38,334 bases of DNA from an uncultured Reyranella sp. Its GTDB lineage: Bacteria; Pseudomonadota; Alphaproteobacteria; Reyranellales; Reyranellaceae. Position numbers and translations under genes: made by a program. The stretch is from the NCBI GenBank assembly GCA_937919085.1, contig CALFRN010000050.1, positions 1 to 38,334 on the forward strand. Reading direction: 5' to 3'. A model generated the notes under the pieces. The model worked only from the letters and a program-made list of their open reading frames with translations. It was not told the DNA's origin and searched no databases. Shown here piece after piece: positions 30,329-38,334 of the stretch; position 1 is the stretch's first letter; every line of letters begins with the position of its first letter.

Positions 30329-33300
30329 CTACTCCGCCGGCTTGTGCAGCCGCGCCAGATCGTCGGCCGACCGGCTGAACCGCTTGCGGCTCCAGGCACT
30401 GATACGGTCGATATAGACCAGAACGACCGGCACGACGACGAGAGTGAGCAGCGTCGAACTGATCAGGCCGCCGATCACCGCATGGGCCATCGGCGCACGC
30501 TGGCTGGCGCCTTCTCCCAGCCCCAGTGCCAGCGGCATCATGCCGAAAATCATGGCGAGCGTGGTCATCAGGATCGGTCGGAGTCGGATCGTGCCGGCCT
30601 CGAGCAAGGCCTCGTTCACAGGCGTGCCGCGCGCACGGGACTGGTTGAAGAAATCCACCAGCAGGATGGCATTCTTGGTGACGAGGCCCATCAGCATGAT
30701 GAAGCCGATGGCACTGAAGATGTTGAGCGTCGTGCCGGCGACCAGCAATCCCAAGAATACGCCGATCAGCGACATCGGCAAGGCCATCATGATGGCGACC
30801 GGCTGCAGGAAACTGCCGAACTGCGACGCGAGGATCAGGTAGATCAGGATCACGGCCAGCAGCAGCGCCTGACCGGCGTAGGCAGCGCTTTCCGCCATGT
30901 CCTTGGTCGAGCCGCCGAAGACGAAACGATAGCCGGGAGGCAGTTTGGTATCGGCCAGGATCCCTTGCAGGTCGCTGCTGACCTCGCCGGTCGACCGCCC
31001 CGACACATTCGCGGTAATCTGTACCTCGCGATTGAGATCGCGGCGGTTGATCTGGGAAGCGCCGACGTCGTCGATGATGTCGGCGATCTGGGCGATATGG
31101 ACCATGCGCGGCAGGCCGTTCGCCTCGGTGCCGGCAGTGAACCAGATGCGCTGCAGGTCGGCCACGCCAGTGCGATCGTCGGTCGGCAGCCGGACCATGA
31201 CGGTGTAGTTCTCGCCATCGGGCGCCCGCCACAGACTGGTCTCGTCGCCGGCGAAAAGGGGCCTCAGGGATTGCGCCACCTGGGCAGAGCCGAGGCCGAG
31301 ATCGGATGCCGCGTCGCGCCGCAGCCGCACAGAAAGGATCGGCTTTGCGGCCTTCAGGTTGCGGTCGAGGTCGACAAGGCCGGGAATGCCGGCGGCTTGA
31401 TGCATCACTTTCTGGGACAGCGTGTCGAGGACCGCGGTGTCGGGCCCCTGCAGGGACAGCTGCAGCTGCTTCTGCACGCCACCGCCAGGACCTCCCGGGA
31501 TATTGATCGATGTCAGGATGCCGGGTATTTGCGCCAGACGGTCCCGGATCGGCTGGGCGAGCTGTTCGGGTGAGCGCTTGCGCTGATCGATCGGCTTCAG
31601 GCGAAGATAGAGGCTGGCCTGATTCTTTCCGTTGGCGTAGCCGGTGTTGACCGTGCCGTAAGTGTAGCCGACTTCCGGCAACTCACGTACTGCGGTGTCG
31701 ACCTGGTTGAGCTTGGCCGCGGTATACTCAAGCGAGGAGCCAACCGGCGTCTCGATACTGACGATCTGTTCGCCGAGATCGGCTTGCGGCACGAATTCGA
31801 AGCCGATGTATTTCGGCAGCGCGAAGCTCCCTACGAAGGTGCCGAGCGCGATCAGCAGGGTGAGCTTGGGCCAGCGTAGCGACCAGCCGAGAACCGCCCG
31901 ATAGACACGGCTGGCATGGTCCTGGGCGGTATTCACGATGCGCGCGAACCGTCCAGTGCCGTGCGCCTGCGGGTCGTACCAGATGCTCGACAGCATCGGG
32001 TCGAGGGTGAAGGACACGAACAGCGAGATCAGCACGGCCGCCGACACCATGACGCCGAACTGGAAGAAGAAGCGGCCGATGATGCCGCCCATGAAGGCGA
32101 CCGGCAGGAATACGGCGACGATGCAGAAGGTGGTGGCCAGCACCGCCAGCCCGATTTCGTTGGTGCCGTCGATCGCCGCCTGACGATGGCTCTTGCCGAA
32201 ACCGATGTGGCGCATGATGTTCTCGCGCACCACGATCGCGTCGTCGATCAGGATGCCGATGGCGAGGCTGAGCGCCATCAGCGTGAGCACATTGAGCGTA
32301 AACCCGAATGCCGCCATCACCATGAAGGCGCCGAAGACCGAAATGGGAAGCGCCAGCCCCGTGATCACCGTGCTGCGCCACGAATGCAGGAACAGGAACA
32401 CGATGGCGATGGTGAGGAGACCACCCTCGATCATGGTCTGCTGGACGTTGTTGACCGAGTTCTGAATACCGCGCGAGCTATCGCGGACGATCTCGAGCTT
32501 TACATCAGGCGGGAGCGAGGACTGCAGGTCGGCGATTGCCCTGCGCACGCCCCGCGCAACCTCGATGGTATTGGAACCCTGGGTCTTGACCACGTCGATC
32601 GCCAGCGCTCGCACGCCGTTCAGCGTTGCGACGTTTTCGAACTCCTGCTGGCCGTCGACCACGGTCGCCACCTGGCGCAGATAGACCGGCGCCAGACCGC
32701 GCCGGGCTACGATCAGGTCGGCGAAATGGCCCGGTTCCGCGACACGGCCGGTAACCTCGATGATGCGGTCGTCGTTGCCGCGGGCGACGTTGCCGGCGGG
32801 GAAATTCTGGTTCTCGTCCCGGATGGCCCGCATGATGTCGTTGACGCCGACGCGCAGCGAATGCATTCGCCCGGGATCGAGCTCGATATTGATCTGGCGT
32901 TTGACGCCACCGGCAATGGTCGCGCGGCCGACGTCACGCACGGTCTGCAATCGCTTGATGATGAGCTGGTCTGCCAGCGTCGTCAGATCGCGCACCGAGC
33001 GGATATCGGAGCGGACGGCGATCGAAACGATGGGCTGGTCGTCCGGATTGAAGCGCTGGATCAGGGGTTCCTTGATCTCGGACTTGAATGCGGCACGGAC
33101 CTGCTGGACCTTCTCGCGGACGTCCTGCAGGGCGACCGGCGATTGGACCGATAGCTCGAACTCGGCGATTACGATGGAGCGGCCCTCGAACGAGCGCGAC
33201 GTCAGCGTCTTGATGCCGGCAATCGCATTGACGGCTTCCTCGATCTTGCGGCTGATCTCGCTTTCCACCGTCTCCGGCGAGGCTCCGGGATAGTCGGTGG

Positions 33301-33442
33301 TAACCACGACGATGGGGAAGTCGACATTTGGGAACTGGTCGATGCCGAGCTGACGGTAGGAGAACAATCCCATTACCAGCAACGCCACCATCATCATGGT
33401 AGCGAAAACTGGATTGTCGACCGCGATCTTGGTGAGTTTCAT
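30329..33442 (-). CDS. RND multidrug efflux pump, inner-membrane subunit (HAE1/AcrB superfamily)
   Basis: Proton-driven pump that expels drugs or other compounds through a tripartite complex. The protein has 1037 residues with 12 expected membrane helices and two large periplasmic loops. The first helix follows MKLTKIAVDNPVFATMMMVA; the porter region begins FPNVDFPIVVVTT. The proton-relay aspartates in helix 4 are at 400-401 (GILIDDAIVVREN). The GxFGxxPLALGLGEGA motif is seen near the C-terminus (MIFGMMPLALGLGEGASQRAP). It most resembles MdtB/MdtC/MexF-like pumps by eye; the substrate is unknown. The adaptor gene ends nine bases upstream. No outer-membrane factor gene is present. Confidence 0.93.
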   Translation of the reverse strand: MKLTKIAVDNPVFATMMMVALLVMGLFSYRQLGIDQFPNVDFPIVVVTTDYPGASPETVESEISRKIEEAVNAIAGIKTLTSRSFEGRSIVIAEFELSVQSPVALQDVREKVQQVRAAFKSEIKEPLIQRFNPDDQPIVSIAVRSDIRSVRDLTTLADQLIIKRLQTVRDVGRATIAGGVKRQINIELDPGRMHSLRVGVNDIMRAIRDENQNFPAGNVARGNDDRIIEVTGRVAEPGHFADLIVARRGLAPVYLRQVATVVDGQQEFENVATLNGVRALAIDVVKTQGSNTIEVARGVRRAIADLQSSLPPDVKLEIVRDSSRGIQNSVNNVQQTMIEGGLLTIAIVFLFLHSWRSTVITGLALPISVFGAFMVMAAFGFTLNVLTLMALSLAIGILIDDAIVVRENIMRHIGFGKSHRQAAIDGTNEIGLAVLATTFCIVAVFLPVAFMGGIIGRFFFQFGVMVSAAVLISLFVSFTLDPMLSSIWYDPQAHGTGRFARIVNTAQDHASRVYRAVLGWSLRWPKLTLLIALGTFVGSFALPKYIGFEFVPQADLGEQIVSIETPVGSSLEYTAAKLNQVDTAVRELPEVGYTYGTVNTGYANGKNQASLYLRLKPIDQRKRSPEQLAQPIRDRLAQIPGILTSINIPGGPGGGVQKQLQLSLQGPDTAVLDTLSQKVMHQAAGIPGLVDLDRNLKAAKPILSVRLRRDAASDLGLGSAQVAQSLRPLFAGDETSLWRAPDGENYTVMVRLPTDDRTGVADLQRIWFTAGTEANGLPRMVHIAQIADIIDDVGASQINRRDLNREVQITANVSGRSTGEVSSDLQGILADTKLPPGYRFVFGGSTKDMAESAAYAGQALLLAVILIYLILASQFGSFLQPVAIMMALPMSLIGVFLGLLVAGTTLNIFSAIGFIMLMGLVTKNAILLVDFFNQSRARGTPVNEALLEAGTIRLRPILMTTLAMIFGMMPLALGLGEGASQRAPMAHAVIGGLISSTLLTLVVVPVVLVYIDRISAWSRKRFSRSADDLARLHKPAE

Positions 33443-33451
33443 CGCTGCGTC

Positions 33452-34579
33452 TTACTTTACTTCGACGATTTTCACTCGTTGCCCGGCGCGCAGGCCAGGC
33501 AAGGTCGCCGACACGATCCGCATGCCGGATTCGAGGCCTTTAACCTCGACCAGTTCGCCTCGAGACCATGTGCGAACGGCGCCGACCGGCTTGCGCACCA
33601 GGATTCCGTTCTCGATGGCCAGTATGTAATCGCCCTGATCGTCCTTGCGCATTGCCGATGCCGGCACGGCGAGCGCATGGTCCTTTTCCTTGACGTTGAC
33701 CCCGCCCGTGGCGAACAAGCCGCCACGCAGGCTTTCATGGCGGTCGAGAATTTCGACGAAGACAAGGATGGAGCGCGAACCGGGCAGCGCCGTCGGGCTG
33801 ATGCGGGTAATGCGGCCGTCGAAGACCTTGTCGCCGAATCCCTCGAGGGTGAGGGTGGCGACCTGCCCTGTGCGCATGCGGACGACGTCAGCGGCGGGCA
33901 TCTGGGCCGCGACTTCGACGTGGCTGGTATCGAGCAGGGTCAGGATCTTGCCGTCGATCGGCAGCGATTCGCCCTGGTTGGCGATACGCTCGCCGACCAC
34001 GCCGTCGAACGGCGCGCGAACGACGGCATCCCCCAGGTTCTTTTCGGCAATTTCGAGCTGCGCCTCGGCAACGGCCACCATCGAGTTCTTGTTTTCGGCG
34101 GCGGCCCGGGCCTGGTCGGCGCTAGACCGGGAGACGATGTTCCGATCGACCAGTGCTTCCTTGTTGGCCCGATCGCGTGCCGTCCAGCGAGCATCGGCGC
34201 GCGCGGCGTCGACCGTGGATTTGCGCTCGTCGACCCTGGCCTGCAGCTCACGGGTTTCGAATTGAGCCAGGACCTGGCCTTCCTTCACCCGGTCGCCTTC
34301 GCGGACCATCACGTCGGCGAGGCGGCCGGCAACGCGCGCCTTGACGATGGTCTGTTCTATTGGCTGCGTGGCGCCGGTGAAACGGATGGTATCGACCAGT
34401 CCGCGCGGTTCGATCGTATGCAGCTCGGCGGGAATGAGTTCGAGGGTGCGCTCGGTCGCCGTGGCGCTGCTGGAGGTCGGCGATTGCGGCGCGGTGCCTG
34501 TTCTCCAGGCGAAGGCGCCGCCCGCGATGACGACGACGACGGCGATTGCACCGATCAGTATCTTGCGGTTGGTTGTCAT
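33452..34579 (-). CDS. RND efflux periplasmic adaptor (membrane fusion protein)
   Basis: Periplasmic adaptor linking the RND pump to an outer-membrane channel. The protein has 375 residues. One N-terminal membrane anchor (8-25) is followed by the beta-barrel/lipoyl region (VKARVAGRLADVMVREGDRVKEGQVLAQFET). A short coiled-coil hairpin rich in Ala/Arg/Glu, the second lipoyl half (APFDGVVGERIANQGE) and a C-terminal membrane-proximal domain come after. No lipobox cysteine is visible. The ATG overlaps the tetR stop by four bases and the pump follows after nine bases, so the three genes form one operon. Confidence 0.92.
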   Translation of the reverse strand: MTTNRKILIGAIAVVVVIAGGAFAWRTGTAPQSPTSSSATATERTLELIPAELHTIEPRGLVDTIRFTGATQPIEQTIVKARVAGRLADVMVREGDRVKEGQVLAQFETRELQARVDERKSTVDAARADARWTARDRANKEALVDRNIVSRSSADQARAAAENKNSMVAVAEAQLEIAEKNLGDAVVRAPFDGVVGERIANQGESLPIDGKILTLLDTSHVEVAAQMPAADVVRMRTGQVATLTLEGFGDKVFDGRITRISPTALPGSRSILVFVEILDRHESLRGGLFATGGVNVKEKDHALAVPASAMRKDDQGDYILAIENGILVRKPVGAVRTWSRGELVEVKGLESGMRIVSATLPGLRAGQRVKIVEVK

Positions 34580-35232
34580 GGCCGGAGGCTCTTCAGGACA
34601 AAATCGAGGTGGGCTTCGTAAAACCGGTCGCTGGTGAGATTGTTCGAGGCATCGAAGGGGGCGAGCGACCGTCTCCAGACCGAGAACATTGCCAGCGGTT
34701 GGACGATGACGATCGCCGTCGTTTCGATATCGGCGATCGGGGCGAACTCGCCGCTTTCCGTGCCTCGGCGCAGCACTCGGGCGAAGAGGTGCCGTCCACG
34801 CGCGTCGAAGTGCGTGCAGAAGAATCGCGCGACATCCGGGAAGTTGCCAGCTTCCGCCAGGATCAGCTTGACCACGCCGCCTGCCGGGCTCTCTTCAAAG
34901 GTGCGGAAGCCCGCAATCAGGCCGCGAAGCAGGTCTTCGCTGGAGCCTTCGAAGCGGTCGATCATGTCCGTCGCTTCGGCGAGCGGACCGCCAATGGCTT
35001 CCGTGATGACCGCCTTGAACAGTTCCTCTTTGTTCTTGAAGTACAGATAGGGCAGGCCCTTGCTGACCGCTGCCGCCCTGGCGACATCGGCGAGCTTGGT
35101 GGCCGCGAAGCCCCGGGTGACGAAGAGCTCGAGGGCGGCCATGGCGATTTCCGACGCCCGATCTGCAGGGCGCCGCGTGCGAGGGGTCGCCGCCGTCGCG
35201 GTCTCGGTATTGACTGACTGGTCAGTATCCAT
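34576..35232 (-). CDS. TetR-family transcriptional regulator of the RND operon
   Basis: Probable local repressor of the efflux operon. The protein has 218 residues. The N-terminal helix-turn-helix covers about residues 44-66 (ATKLADVARAAAVSKGLPYLYF), preceded by SEIAMAALELFVTRGF; the C-terminal half is the ligand and dimer domain. The start ATG at 35230-35232 has no Shine-Dalgarno, but a -10 element at 35240-35245 places transcription start on or next to it, so the mRNA may be leaderless. A TetR-type palindrome lies inside codons 3-7. An internal Met at residue 31 would cut into the DNA-binding domain. The adaptor gene overlaps its stop by four bases. Confidence 0.92.
   Translation of the reverse strand: MDTDQSVNTETATAATPRTRRPADRASEIAMAALELFVTRGFAATKLADVARAAAVSKGLPYLYFKNKEELFKAVITEAIGGPLAEATDMIDRFEGSSEDLLRGLIAGFRTFEESPAGGVVKLILAEAGNFPDVARFFCTHFDARGRHLFARVLRRGTESGEFAPIADIETTAIVIVQPLAMFSVWRRSLAPFDASNNLTSDRFYEAHLDFVLKSLRP
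35213..35226. promoter_or_regulatory. Operator-like palindrome ACTGAC-TG-GTCAGT
   Basis: Six-base arms flank TG. The site falls within codons 3-7 of the TetR gene, at about +7 to +20 of the proposed leaderless transcript, a typical place for an autorepressor. The arm sequence GTCAGT/ACTGAC resembles many operators of TetR proteins that control efflux pumps (from memory). Confidence 0.6.
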
Positions 35233-35273: not shown

Positions 35274-35309
35274 GCAAAAAAAGAGTCCGGCAGACCGAAG
35301 TCGCCGGAC
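35274..35309 (-). terminator. Intrinsic terminator of the AAKKK-peptide/structured-RNA unit
   Basis: Arms GTCCGGC (35285-35291) and GCCGGAC (35303-35309) enclose an inner GAC-CGAA-GTC hairpin with one unpaired A. Read on the minus strand the stem is followed by TCTTTTTTTG. It marks the 3' end of a minus-strand transcript well before tetR begins at 35232. Confidence 0.88.
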
Positions 35310-35330
35310 GCTTATCCAGTTTCGCCTTTC

Positions 35331-35350
35331 CACCTCCGCGAGCGAAGGTG
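35331..35350 (-). ncRNA. Hairpin between the structured RNA and its terminator
   Basis: On the minus strand CACCTTCG-CTCG-CGGAGGTG forms an eight-base stem with one U-G pair and a four-base loop. It is part of the same proposed transcript as the three-way-junction element. Function unknown. Confidence 0.45.
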
Positions 35351-35381
35351 TTGCGTTGGCATATTGATTTACGTCTTCTGA

Positions 35382-35479
35382 AGGTAGCTTCCGGTGGGTA
35401 CCGTGAGGGTACCCACGCGGAAGCCGAAAGGCGTTTGGTTAGAGGGGCCAAAGTAAACTTTGGCCTACGCCCTTTACCT
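35382..35479 (-). ncRNA. Structured RNA element, possible three-way junction, no known family recognised
   Basis: Pairing seen in the sequence: P1, AGGTA (35382-35386) with TACCT (35475-35479). P2, GCTTCC (35387-35392) with GGAAGC (35419-35424), continued by GTGGGTACC (35394-35402) with GGTACCCAC (35408-35416) around a five-base loop. P3, AAAGGCGT (35427-35434) with ACGCCCTTT (35467-35475), one bulged base. P4, GGCCAAAG (35446-35453) with CTTTGGCC (35458-35465) and a four-base loop. Together they make a compact fold of about 98 bases. P1 begins two bases after the stop codon of the AAKKK micro-gene, and a terminator follows 70 bases later, which favours the minus strand. It does not match the tmRNA, RNase P, 6S or SRP signatures I know. 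Confidence 0.55.
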
Positions 35480-35481
35480 GA

Positions 35482-35538
35482 CTACTGCTTCTTCTTCTTA
35501 GCAGCCTTCTTCTTAGCAGCCTTTTTCTTAGCAGCCAT
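35482..35538 (-). CDS. 18-residue Lys/Ala-repeat micro-protein
   Basis: ATG at 35536-35538, stop TAG at 35482-35484, product MAAKKKAAKKKAAKKKKQ. AGGAG lies six bases before the ATG, a near-ideal ribosome site, and an in-frame TAG four codons upstream fixes the start. The coding part is three tandem 15-bp units (gctgctaagaaraag type). Ten of 18 residues are lysine, so the peptide would bind nucleic acid or ribosomes non-specifically, much like the tails of bacterial histone-like proteins. That role is inference. It is followed at once by a structured RNA and a terminator, so it might also be a regulatory leader peptide. No similarity search was possible. Confidence 0.65.
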   Translation of the reverse strand: MAAKKKAAKKKAAKKKKQ

Positions 35539-35616
35539 AACTGTCTCCTATGGTTAGCTGTGAGGTCCCCAACCGCGAGGGCCCCGGCTTACGCGGGTAC
35601 GCTACGCCACACATGC
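35539..35616. other. Gap between nrdJ stop and the AAKKK micro-gene
   Basis: A 78-base GC-rich spacer. On the minus strand CCGCG and CGCGG can pair around a GC-rich loop (about 35572-35596), but no T-run follows, so it is a weak nrdJ terminator candidate at best. A promoter for the micro-gene should lie here or in the nrdJ 3' end; I could not identify convincing hexamers. Confidence 0.4.
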
Positions 35617-38334
35617 TCAACTACAACCGGTGGTGCCGCCGCAGGTCGTGCATTTGAGGCACGTCCCGTTGCGGACCATGGTGAAGTTGCCGCATTCCGG
35701 ACAGGCATCCCCTTCGTAGCCCTTGAGTCTCGCCTGGAAGGCGAGATCGAGTGCGGAAGAGGGTGCCTCTCCGATCGCGACGCCGACGACGGCCGCTTGG
35801 GCGTTTGATGCCAAAGCGACGGCTGGGCCGTCCGTCAGTCCTGTGGGCACGAGGCCGGCGGCGATCGCCTCGGAGGCGATCGCGACATTGCCGGCCGTAC
35901 GGCCATTCAACACGTAAAGATTGCTGCGCACGAAGCCGACGCTGGCGATGCGGCTCACCGCCGCCGCCGCTGCCTTGGCGGCATCGGTACCGGAGTCCGG
36001 CAGTTCGCCCTGCACTTCGCCGCGCCCGACGCCGTCGGGCTGAAGATCGGCCGGCTCGACATGCGAGAGGTCGTTGCGCCCAAGATATGAAATCGCCAGC
36101 TCGCGGAATATGTAGTCGAGCACCGACGTCGACATCTTGATCGCATCGTTGCCAATGACCGGTCCGGACGGCTCGAAGCGCGTGAAGGTGTAGGCTTCGA
36201 CGAACTCTTCCAGCGGCACGCCGTACTGCAGGCCGATCGAAATCGCGATGGCGAAGTTGTTCATGAGGCTGCGGAACGCCGCGCCTTCCTTGTGCATGTC
36301 GACGAAGATCTCGCCGACACGGCCGTCCTCGTACTCGCCGGTGCGAAGATAGACCTTATGGCCGCCGACATTGGCCTTCTGCGTATAACCCTTGCGGCGT
36401 TGCGGCAGCCGTTCGCGGCCAGCGCGCACTTCCCGCTCCACGATCCGTTCTACAATGCGTTCAGCGATGATCGGAGCCCGGGCTGCAGGGGACAGCTCCG
36501 CGAGATCGTCGTTGGCGGCCTTGTCATCGCCAATCGCCATTGCCGATAGCGGCTGCGAGAGTTTCGAGCCGTCTCGATACAGTGCATTGGCTTTCAGGCC
36601 GAGTCGCCACGACATTTCATAGGCCTTGCGGCAATCCTCGACCGTAGCTTCGTTGGGCATGTTGATGGTCTTGGAGATGGCGCCCGATACGAACGGCTGG
36701 GCTGCAGCCATCATGCGTATATGACTCTCCGCAGACAAGCTGCGTGTGCCTTCTCGTCCACAGGGATTTGCACAATCGAACACCGCGAGGTGCTCACGCT
36801 TGAGTCCGGGGGCGCCCTCGACCGTCATCGTCCCGCAGGCATGGATGTTCGCCTGTGCAATGTCGCCCGTGGAGAACCCGAGGCATGCCAGCACGTCGAG
36901 CTTGGGATCCGCGAGCACGGCATCGTCAAGGCCCAGCACATCCCGGCAGAAAGCCTCGCCCAGCGTGTAGCGTGAAAACGCGAAGCGGATATCGAAGGCG
37001 GTGACGATCGCTTTTTCGACGCGCGCAAGCGTTCCGGCATCGAAGCCGCGCACGGCCAGGGTCTCGTGGTTGATCGCCGGCGCACCGGCGAGCGAACCGT
37101 GCCCGACGGCGTAGTCGACGATACGGGTGATGGCCGCGGAGTCATAGCCCAGGGTCTGCAAGGCCAGCGTGACGGTCTGGTTGATGATCTTGAAGTAGCC
37201 GCCGCCCGCCAGCTTCTTGAATTTGACCAGCGAGAAATCGGGCTCGATGCCGGTGGTGTCGCAATCCATGACCAGGCCGATCGTCCCGGTGGGAGCGATG
37301 ACGGAGACCTGGGCGTTGCGGAAGCCGTGCCGTTCGCCGAGTTCGAGAGCCTGGTTCCATACGCGCCTGGCGGCATCCACCAGCCGGCCGTCGGGGCAAT
37401 TGGCGGCGTCCAGCGTCACAGGCGCGATCGAGAGGGCTTCATAGCCCGCCACTTCGCCGTGAGCGGCGCGGCGATGGTTGCGGATGACGCGAAGCATGGC
37501 GTCGCGATTGGCGGTGAAACCGGGGAAGGGGCCCATGAGGCCGGCCAGTTCGGCGGAGGTGGCGTAGGCGGCGCCGGTCATTACCGCCGTCACGGCACCG
37601 GCGATAGCCCGGCCCCTGACGCTGTCGTATCCCAGGCCGGACGCCATCAGCAGAGCGCCCAGGTTGGCGTAGCCAAGGCCCAGCGTTCGATATCGATAGG
37701 AGAGTTCGGCAATCGTGCGCGAAGGATACTGCGCCATCATCACGGAAATCTCTAGCACGACGGTCCACAGCCGCGAGGCGTGTTCCAGCGCCTCGACGTC
37801 GAGCGACCCATCGGCCTGACGGAACTTCATCAGGTTCAAAGAGGCCAGATTGCACGCCGTATCGTCGAGAAACATGTACTCCGAACACGGATTTGAGGCG
37901 TTGATCCGCCCCGACTCCGGGCAAGTGTGCCAATCGTTGATCGTGGTGTCGTACTGCACGCCGGGATCCGCCGAGTGCCACGCCGCCTCGGCAATGCCAT
38001 CCCACAACGCCCGCGCGTTGACCGTCTTGGCCACCTTGCCGGTCGTACGCTCGGTGAGCGACCATTGGCGGTCGGCTTCGACGGCGCGCAGGAACTCGTC
38101 GGTGACCCGGACCGAGTTGTTGGCATTCTGGCCGGCGACCGACACATAGGCTTCCGACTGCCAGTCGGTGTCGAAAGCCGGGAATTCGATGTGGCGATAG
38201 CCCTGCCGGGCAAACTGGATGACCCGCTGGATATAGTTTTCGGGCAGTTCCGCCCGGCGGGCCGCGACGATCTCGCGGCGCAGTTTCGGATTCCGCCGCG
38301 GATCGAACGCCGCATCGCCGGCCGTGTCGCCGTC
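35617..38334 (-). CDS. nrdJ: Adenosylcobalamin-dependent (class II) ribonucleotide reductase, N-terminus beyond window
   Basis: Reduces ribonucleotides to deoxyribonucleotides with a cobalamin-generated thiyl radical. The 905 C-terminal residues are visible; the frame is open at 38334. The catalytic NPCSE (thiyl Cys, codon 37885-37887) and the redox Cys 11 residues later in [11 protein letters not shown] are present. [19 protein letters not shown] and [14 protein letters not shown] are typical of the large alphaproteobacterial NrdJ. After the barrel comes a linker, a [20 protein letters not shown] domain, and a Cys-rich tail, CPECGNF...CLKCTTCGG...GCS, with seven cysteines. The tail holds a zinc-ribbon-like pair and the redox shuttle that re-reduces the active site. 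The B12 requirement implies cobalamin synthesis or uptake elsewhere. Confidence 0.95.

Follow-up and report, generated by a model that had tools for sequence, protein, structure and literature searches.

The window analyzed here, 38,334 nucleotides (nt) of contig CALFRN010000050.1 (assembly GCA_937919085.1) from an uncultured Reyranella sp., carries a compact unit on its minus strand, between the 3' part of nrdJ, which encodes a vitamin B12-dependent ribonucleotide reductase, and a tetR gene. The unit consists of a Shine–Dalgarno (SD) sequence (AGGAG, 35545..35549, 6 nt before the ATG), an 18-codon open reading frame (ORF), MAAKKKAAKKKAAKKKKQ, at 35482..35538, about 170 nt of strongly folded RNA, and an intrinsic terminator at 35276..35309; the span from SD to terminator is 35276-35549. 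All features described below lie on this strand. An earlier interpretation made from the letters of this DNA (here termed the sequence-only reading) had placed an SD, an 18-codon ORF, dense stem-loops and a terminator at 35274-35538, and all of these parts are present. The layout stands; the limits do not, as a conserved 78-nt leader with a hairpin and GCGTA repeats (35539..35616) extends the unit to the nrdJ stop codon.

Conservation of the micro-ORF

A 311-base query was compared with 36 genomes of the same genus besides the window's own (37 with its own). All 36 matched, one of them (G033) in the RNA part alone. The locus in that genome, L328 (G033:C51), lies on a contig that joins NrdJ at GTCLK straight to the 3' hairpin, with the zinc-ribbon tail, the leader and the ORF deleted, which is probably an assembly fault and otherwise a natural loss. 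Presence across the order was counted in 76 genomes of the Reyranella order (51 of good quality, six genera in total), with presence defined as an SD plus MAAKKK[AV]AKK. By this definition SD and ORF occur in 73 of the 76 genomes, in all 51 good ones and in 6/6 genera, and the three genomes without a match, G033 among them, are incomplete or contaminated assemblies. The search of related genomes that the sequence-only reading had proposed thus recovers the ORF with its SD throughout the order and the RNA fold in Reyranellaceae.

To assess the pattern of variation, 57 different loci whose ORF has 18 codons were compared. All ten lysines are invariant, and the sole amino-acid changes are A7V, A13V/D and Q18S/I. 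Of the 17 sites at each codon position, 1 varies at position 1, 3 at position 2 and 10 at position 3, so that first and second positions together account for 4 of 34. There are 9 synonymous and 7 amino-acid variants, more synonymous ones than the expected share of 0.24 (p = 0.006 by the binomial test, uncorrected for phylogeny, with each distinct variant counted once and not as independent events on the tree). The codon-position pattern and the invariant lysines indicate, from comparative sequence data, that the micro-ORF is under selection as a protein, and the same pattern together with the constant SD, which is invariant in 57 aligned Reyranella-type sequences, suggests that it is translated in vivo. 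The peptide has 10 lysines and 6 alanines in 18 residues, the kind of lysine/alanine-rich composition that marks histone-H1-like proteins. The other genera have versions of 20–22 amino acids (aa) with altered repeats (MAAKKKAAKKAPAKKKAAKKKK, MAAKKKAAKKAVKKKAAKKK) and the same A/K composition. The peptide has no Pfam or NCBIfam match, and the AAKKK repeat string was not found in the literature searched.

Longer H1-like relatives (44–68 aa) are encoded elsewhere in some Reyranella genomes, and in genus g278 a second gene starting MAAKKKAAKKAVKKAVKK lies about 230 nt downstream in the same SD and start context. One locus of this genus (L304) shows two successive AAKKK genes about 96 and 389 nt past the nrdJ stop, a 20-aa microgene followed by a longer H1-like gene that runs off the contig; GCGTA repeats and GGAGCAAGACCATGGCTGC precede both, and a duplication is possible.

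Structure and covariation of the 3' RNA

The transcript region folds at -137.4 kcal/mol, compared with -118.1 ± 5.1 kcal/mol in dinucleotide shuffles (z = -3.8). Pairing was evaluated in an alignment (A3) of the 57 Reyranella-type sequences, which covers the leader, the ORF and the RNA module, against column shuffles and against the alignment slid out of register. Pairing is possible in 93% of the cells of the proposed structure, and 119 cells carry double changes, whereas shuffling the columns leaves 36 and sliding the alignment no more than 48. Three hairpins outside the ORF carry such changes in several pairs each: P2 (GGCCAAAG/CTTTGGCC, 35446..35465) with double changes in 6 of 8 pairs, P3 (GGCTTCCG...CGGAAGC, 35386..35425) with 6 of 17, and P4 (CACCTTCG-CTCG-CGGAGGTG, 35331..35350) with 8 of 8. 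Because of this covariation we consider the structured RNA real, and the comparison of sequences indicates that its structure is under selection.

The 5' strand of helix P1, AAAGGGCGT (35467..35475), can form near-invariant pairs with 35434-35427, and the shared strand CGCCTTTC (35426..35433) has a partner either upstream (P1) or downstream (P1'), the two being mutually exclusive. The nearly constant strand CGCCUUUC can pair with AAAGGGCG just past the stop codon (P1) or with GAAAGGCG further down (P1', 3' strand at 35323..35330, 98.7% of cells paired). P1' is energetically preferred in 47 of 47 sequences tested, by 5.3 kcal/mol on average; P1 could form first during transcription. The terminator, a GC-rich stem closed by a UUCG loop and followed by a T run (GTCCGGC-GAC-TTCG-GTC-T-GCCGGAC-TCTTTTTTT), is paired in 96% of cells and folds independently of both P1 and P1'. 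A C-rich, mostly unpaired stretch, CCCCTCTAACCAA (35435..35447), is kept in most Reyranellaceae genomes read and varies as CCCCTCGAAC, CCCTCTGAC, CCCCTTCTGAC, CCCCTTTTAAC and CGCCTATCC. The mostly unpaired CCCCUCUAAC is retained in other Reyranellaceae genera, where the surrounding stem is GATTGGC/GCCAATC and the P1/P1' sequences are replaced. In four loci of genus g26 (L193, L315-L317) a T-run terminator is not obvious, and a second long hairpin with a C-rich stretch (CCCCCTTCCCC) follows P3 in its stead.

By covariance-model search the module is present in single copy in its own genome. Across 289 genomes of the class its matches are confined to Reyranellaceae, apart from a single hit with E = 0.006, a level that chance predicts over so many genomes. 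Rfam yielded no matches at the gathering thresholds and nothing at relaxed ones (the best hit below threshold, with E = 0.07, lay on the opposite strand), a scan for transfer and transfer-messenger RNAs found none, and a distant blastn search of a plasmid collection gave no match. The microgene is fixed throughout a whole order of bacteria and is missed by the family libraries Pfam, NCBIfam and Rfam.

The leader, aligned from the nrdJ stop to the start codon, contains three GCGTA boxes, which are present also in the leaders of other genera, and a hairpin (GGGG..CTCG-CGGT-TGGG..CCTC, 35562..35585) with 95.6 and 98.2% of cells paired and mostly one-sided changes. A pairing of the leader sequence GGUUGGGG with CUCUAACC, inspected by eye, fails in some genomes with changed loops and is not claimed. 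Besides the one at 35590-35607 of the window, GCGTA clusters (GCGTAGCGTAAGCGTA) occur at 1501-1516 of each of two other loci (L345 and L344), directly past the stop codon of a DUF1127-matching gene in the window's own genome and of its look-alike in a second Reyranella genome; a terminator-like hairpin follows. As a genome-wide regulon the GCGTA triplet was rejected, with 3 clusters in the own genome against a control count of 2.

Possible roles of the unit

We tentatively favour, with somewhat less than even confidence, the reading that a single short transcript gives rise to a nucleic-acid-binding peptide and, in Reyranellaceae, to a regulatory RNA in its 3' untranslated region. The transcript would be made alone or as the tail of the nrdJ transcript. 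One product would be the lysine/alanine peptide of 18–22 aa, with ten lysines in the window, which amounts to a pared-down form of the histone-H1-like tails of bacteria and presumably binds nucleic acids electrostatically. The other, in Reyranellaceae, would be the folded 3' RNA with its exposed C-rich CCCCUCUAAC and strong terminator, acting as a small RNA (sRNA) on targets of which the simplest would be purine-rich ribosome-binding sites able to pair with CCCCUCUAAC. Two suggestions of the sequence-only reading survive here as readings: a tiny basic nucleic-acid-binding protein, consistent with the codon-position pattern and the invariant lysines, and a dual-function RNA, consistent with a selected ORF joined to a covarying RNA.

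Several observations weigh against this proposal. The sole genome of a second family, G037, keeps the ORF without the RNA module, and hence the ORF and the RNA need not work together. CCCCUCUAAC is altered in a few genomes (CCCUCUGAC, CGCCUAUCC) and differs from the CCUCCUCCC seed of other alphaproteobacterial sRNAs, and the binomial p counts distinct variants rather than independent events on the tree.

Dual-function sRNAs such as SgrS/SgrT and VcdRP/VcdP combine a short ORF and a structured RNA with a terminator in one short transcript. The putative transcript proposed here resembles them in all three elements, some of which are described in PMC8672173. It differs in that the peptide is polybasic and the unit is fixed behind nrdJ. 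With histone-H1-like proteins (the C-terminal repeats of AlgP and PhaF, and Chlamydia Hc2) the peptide shares low-complexity lysine/alanine repeats, and longer H1-like relatives adjoin it or occur elsewhere in genomes of the order. AlgP H1-like tail repeat peptides bind DNA (PMC9239181). The Reyranella peptide differs in having 18–22 residues and no folded domain, and in Reyranella no proline.

The CIN1 system (DUF1127-CcsR/cuckoo) has a similar plan. In it, the RNA-binding DUF1127 protein CcaF1 shares a transcript with the CcsR sRNAs, which lie at the 3' end of its gene (PMC10253847). There, too, the gene of a small RNA-binding protein precedes hairpin RNAs with C-rich unpaired motifs and a Rho-independent terminator on one transcript. 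By contrast, the Reyranella peptide has 18 aa and no DUF1127 domain, the RNA module is single where CIN1 has several repeats, and the aligned sequences contain CCCCUCUAAC and its variants instead of CCUCCUCCC. Alphaproteobacterial sRNAs silence messenger RNAs through CCUCCUCCC loops, and the C-rich unpaired segment of the Reyranella RNA, which might likewise base-pair with ribosome-binding sites, resembles the anti-Shine–Dalgarno loops of alpha-r14/NfeR1 sRNAs (PMC10746234); here, however, the segment is CCCCUCUAAC and the RNA carries an ORF. A canonical cuckoo RNA was rejected, as CCUCCUCCC is absent from the locus and from the vicinity of the true DUF1127 genes found elsewhere in the own genome, near which no CCTCCTC motif was seen either. 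We regard the likeness to CIN1 and alpha-r14 as analogy and not membership, since neither defining motif is present. The unit offers a test case for a recurring plan in which a single transcript combines a small basic protein with an sRNA; its origin would have been independent of DUF1127-CcsR.

A second possibility, plausible but short of probable, is that nrdJ, the microgene and the RNA form one transcript and that the unit serves the expression or function of ribonucleotide reductase. The 3' part of nrdJ (35617..38334, NCBIfam NF005736/TIGR02504, stop codon at 35619-35617) is the constant upstream neighbour; its frame is open to the contig end, and the N-terminus lies beyond the contig. The ORF follows nrdJ at 76–115 nt wherever in the order the two could be read together (78 nt from stop to ATG in the window), whereas tetR is downstream in 37 of 67 loci, some with short flanks, and the ORF and the RNA persist regardless. 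Neither a terminator nor a sigma-70-like promoter was found between nrdJ and the ORF, although alphaproteobacterial promoters may escape such a scan. The claim that none of the unit belongs to the neighbours holds for tetR, whose start at 35232 lies past the terminator, but is only a possibility for nrdJ. The unit may be free-standing, but as no promoter was found before the ORF, the microgene could instead be the terminal cistron of an nrdJ operon. Against a need of NrdJ for the unit, 108 of 110 alphaproteobacterial nrdJ 3' ends have no lysine-rich small ORF within 600 nt, so that NrdJ does not need it, and AAKKK genes elsewhere adjoin other genes. The two exceptions are Reyranellaceae, and a general nrdJ companion across Alphaproteobacteria was rejected on this count. 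On transcription the nrdJ-operon reading is compatible with the favoured one, and our confidences in the two overlap.

It is also possible, if rather doubtful, that the peptide is the sole product and that the role of the 3' structure is confined to its own transcript, which it would stabilize or shield from RNase, or on which it would be an autoregulatory site bound by the peptide. Conservation reaches further for the ORF than for the RNA, a microgene of the AAKKK kind from another order (L039) is followed at once by a plain terminator-like hairpin, and one would expect a polybasic peptide to bind highly structured RNA. A cis-acting stability element, however, leaves unexplained why an unpaired C-rich segment is retained amid drifting stems.

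The sequence-only reading had also considered a lysine-codon leader peptide whose translation the RNA fold beside the efflux operon would sense. In such a scheme, ribosome stalling on the AAG run would switch between P1 and P1' and thereby control the RNA or the efflux regulator. The alternative partners of CGCCUUUC fit this scheme, and a ribosome at the stop codon would cover AAAGGGCG, but folding of the terminator does not depend on either pairing, P1' is favoured in all sequences tested, and other genera substitute the P1/P1' sequences. With tetR downstream in 37 of 67 loci (some flanks being short), a leader peptide of the efflux operon is very unlikely; attenuation of tetR and the efflux genes was rejected given the turnover of downstream genes and the lack of an alternative terminator pairing. 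In the window, tetR, an HlyD-family adaptor and an AcrB-type RND permease stand in a row at 30329-35232, an ordinary efflux operon. That the locus yields a noncoding RNA only, the ORF being a chance frame in a repeat, is hardly credible: AAKKK-coding repeats are indeed low-complexity DNA, but variability is concentrated at third positions, the lysines are constant, and SD and frame are retained in all six genera while the repeat length differs between them.

AAKKK microgenes in other lineages

A pattern scan selecting for AAKKK ORFs of 13–40 aa with a Shine–Dalgarno sequence found at least 57 outside Reyranella, in many phyla; among the matches listed are Woesearchaeota, Gemmatimonadota, Acidobacteriota, Omnitrophota, Bdellovibrionales and Betaproteobacteria. 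We treat these ORFs as a lead rather than a family, because the pattern itself selects them and a resemblance between low-complexity sequences says little about shared ancestry. AAKKK microgenes fall below the usual length limits of gene callers. We speculate, while considering it unlikely, that the free-standing ones encode a broadly distributed class, overlooked by annotation, of minimal H1-tail-like proteins in bacteria and a number of archaeal genomes, and that in Reyranellaceae this class has gained a 3' regulatory RNA that the peptide from the same transcript helps to fold or process. The Reyranella unit provides a small test case for whether polybasic peptides of 13–40 aa act as nucleoid or RNA-binding proteins.

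Some AAKKK microgenes of other phyla stand beside genes resembling rpiA (L049, L086, L119, L061 and L048), others beside genes resembling gmk (L087, L155) or pyrD (L100, L115). These neighbours, named by eye from the sequence, are look-alikes of nucleotide-pathway genes and may be compared with nrdJ in Reyranella.
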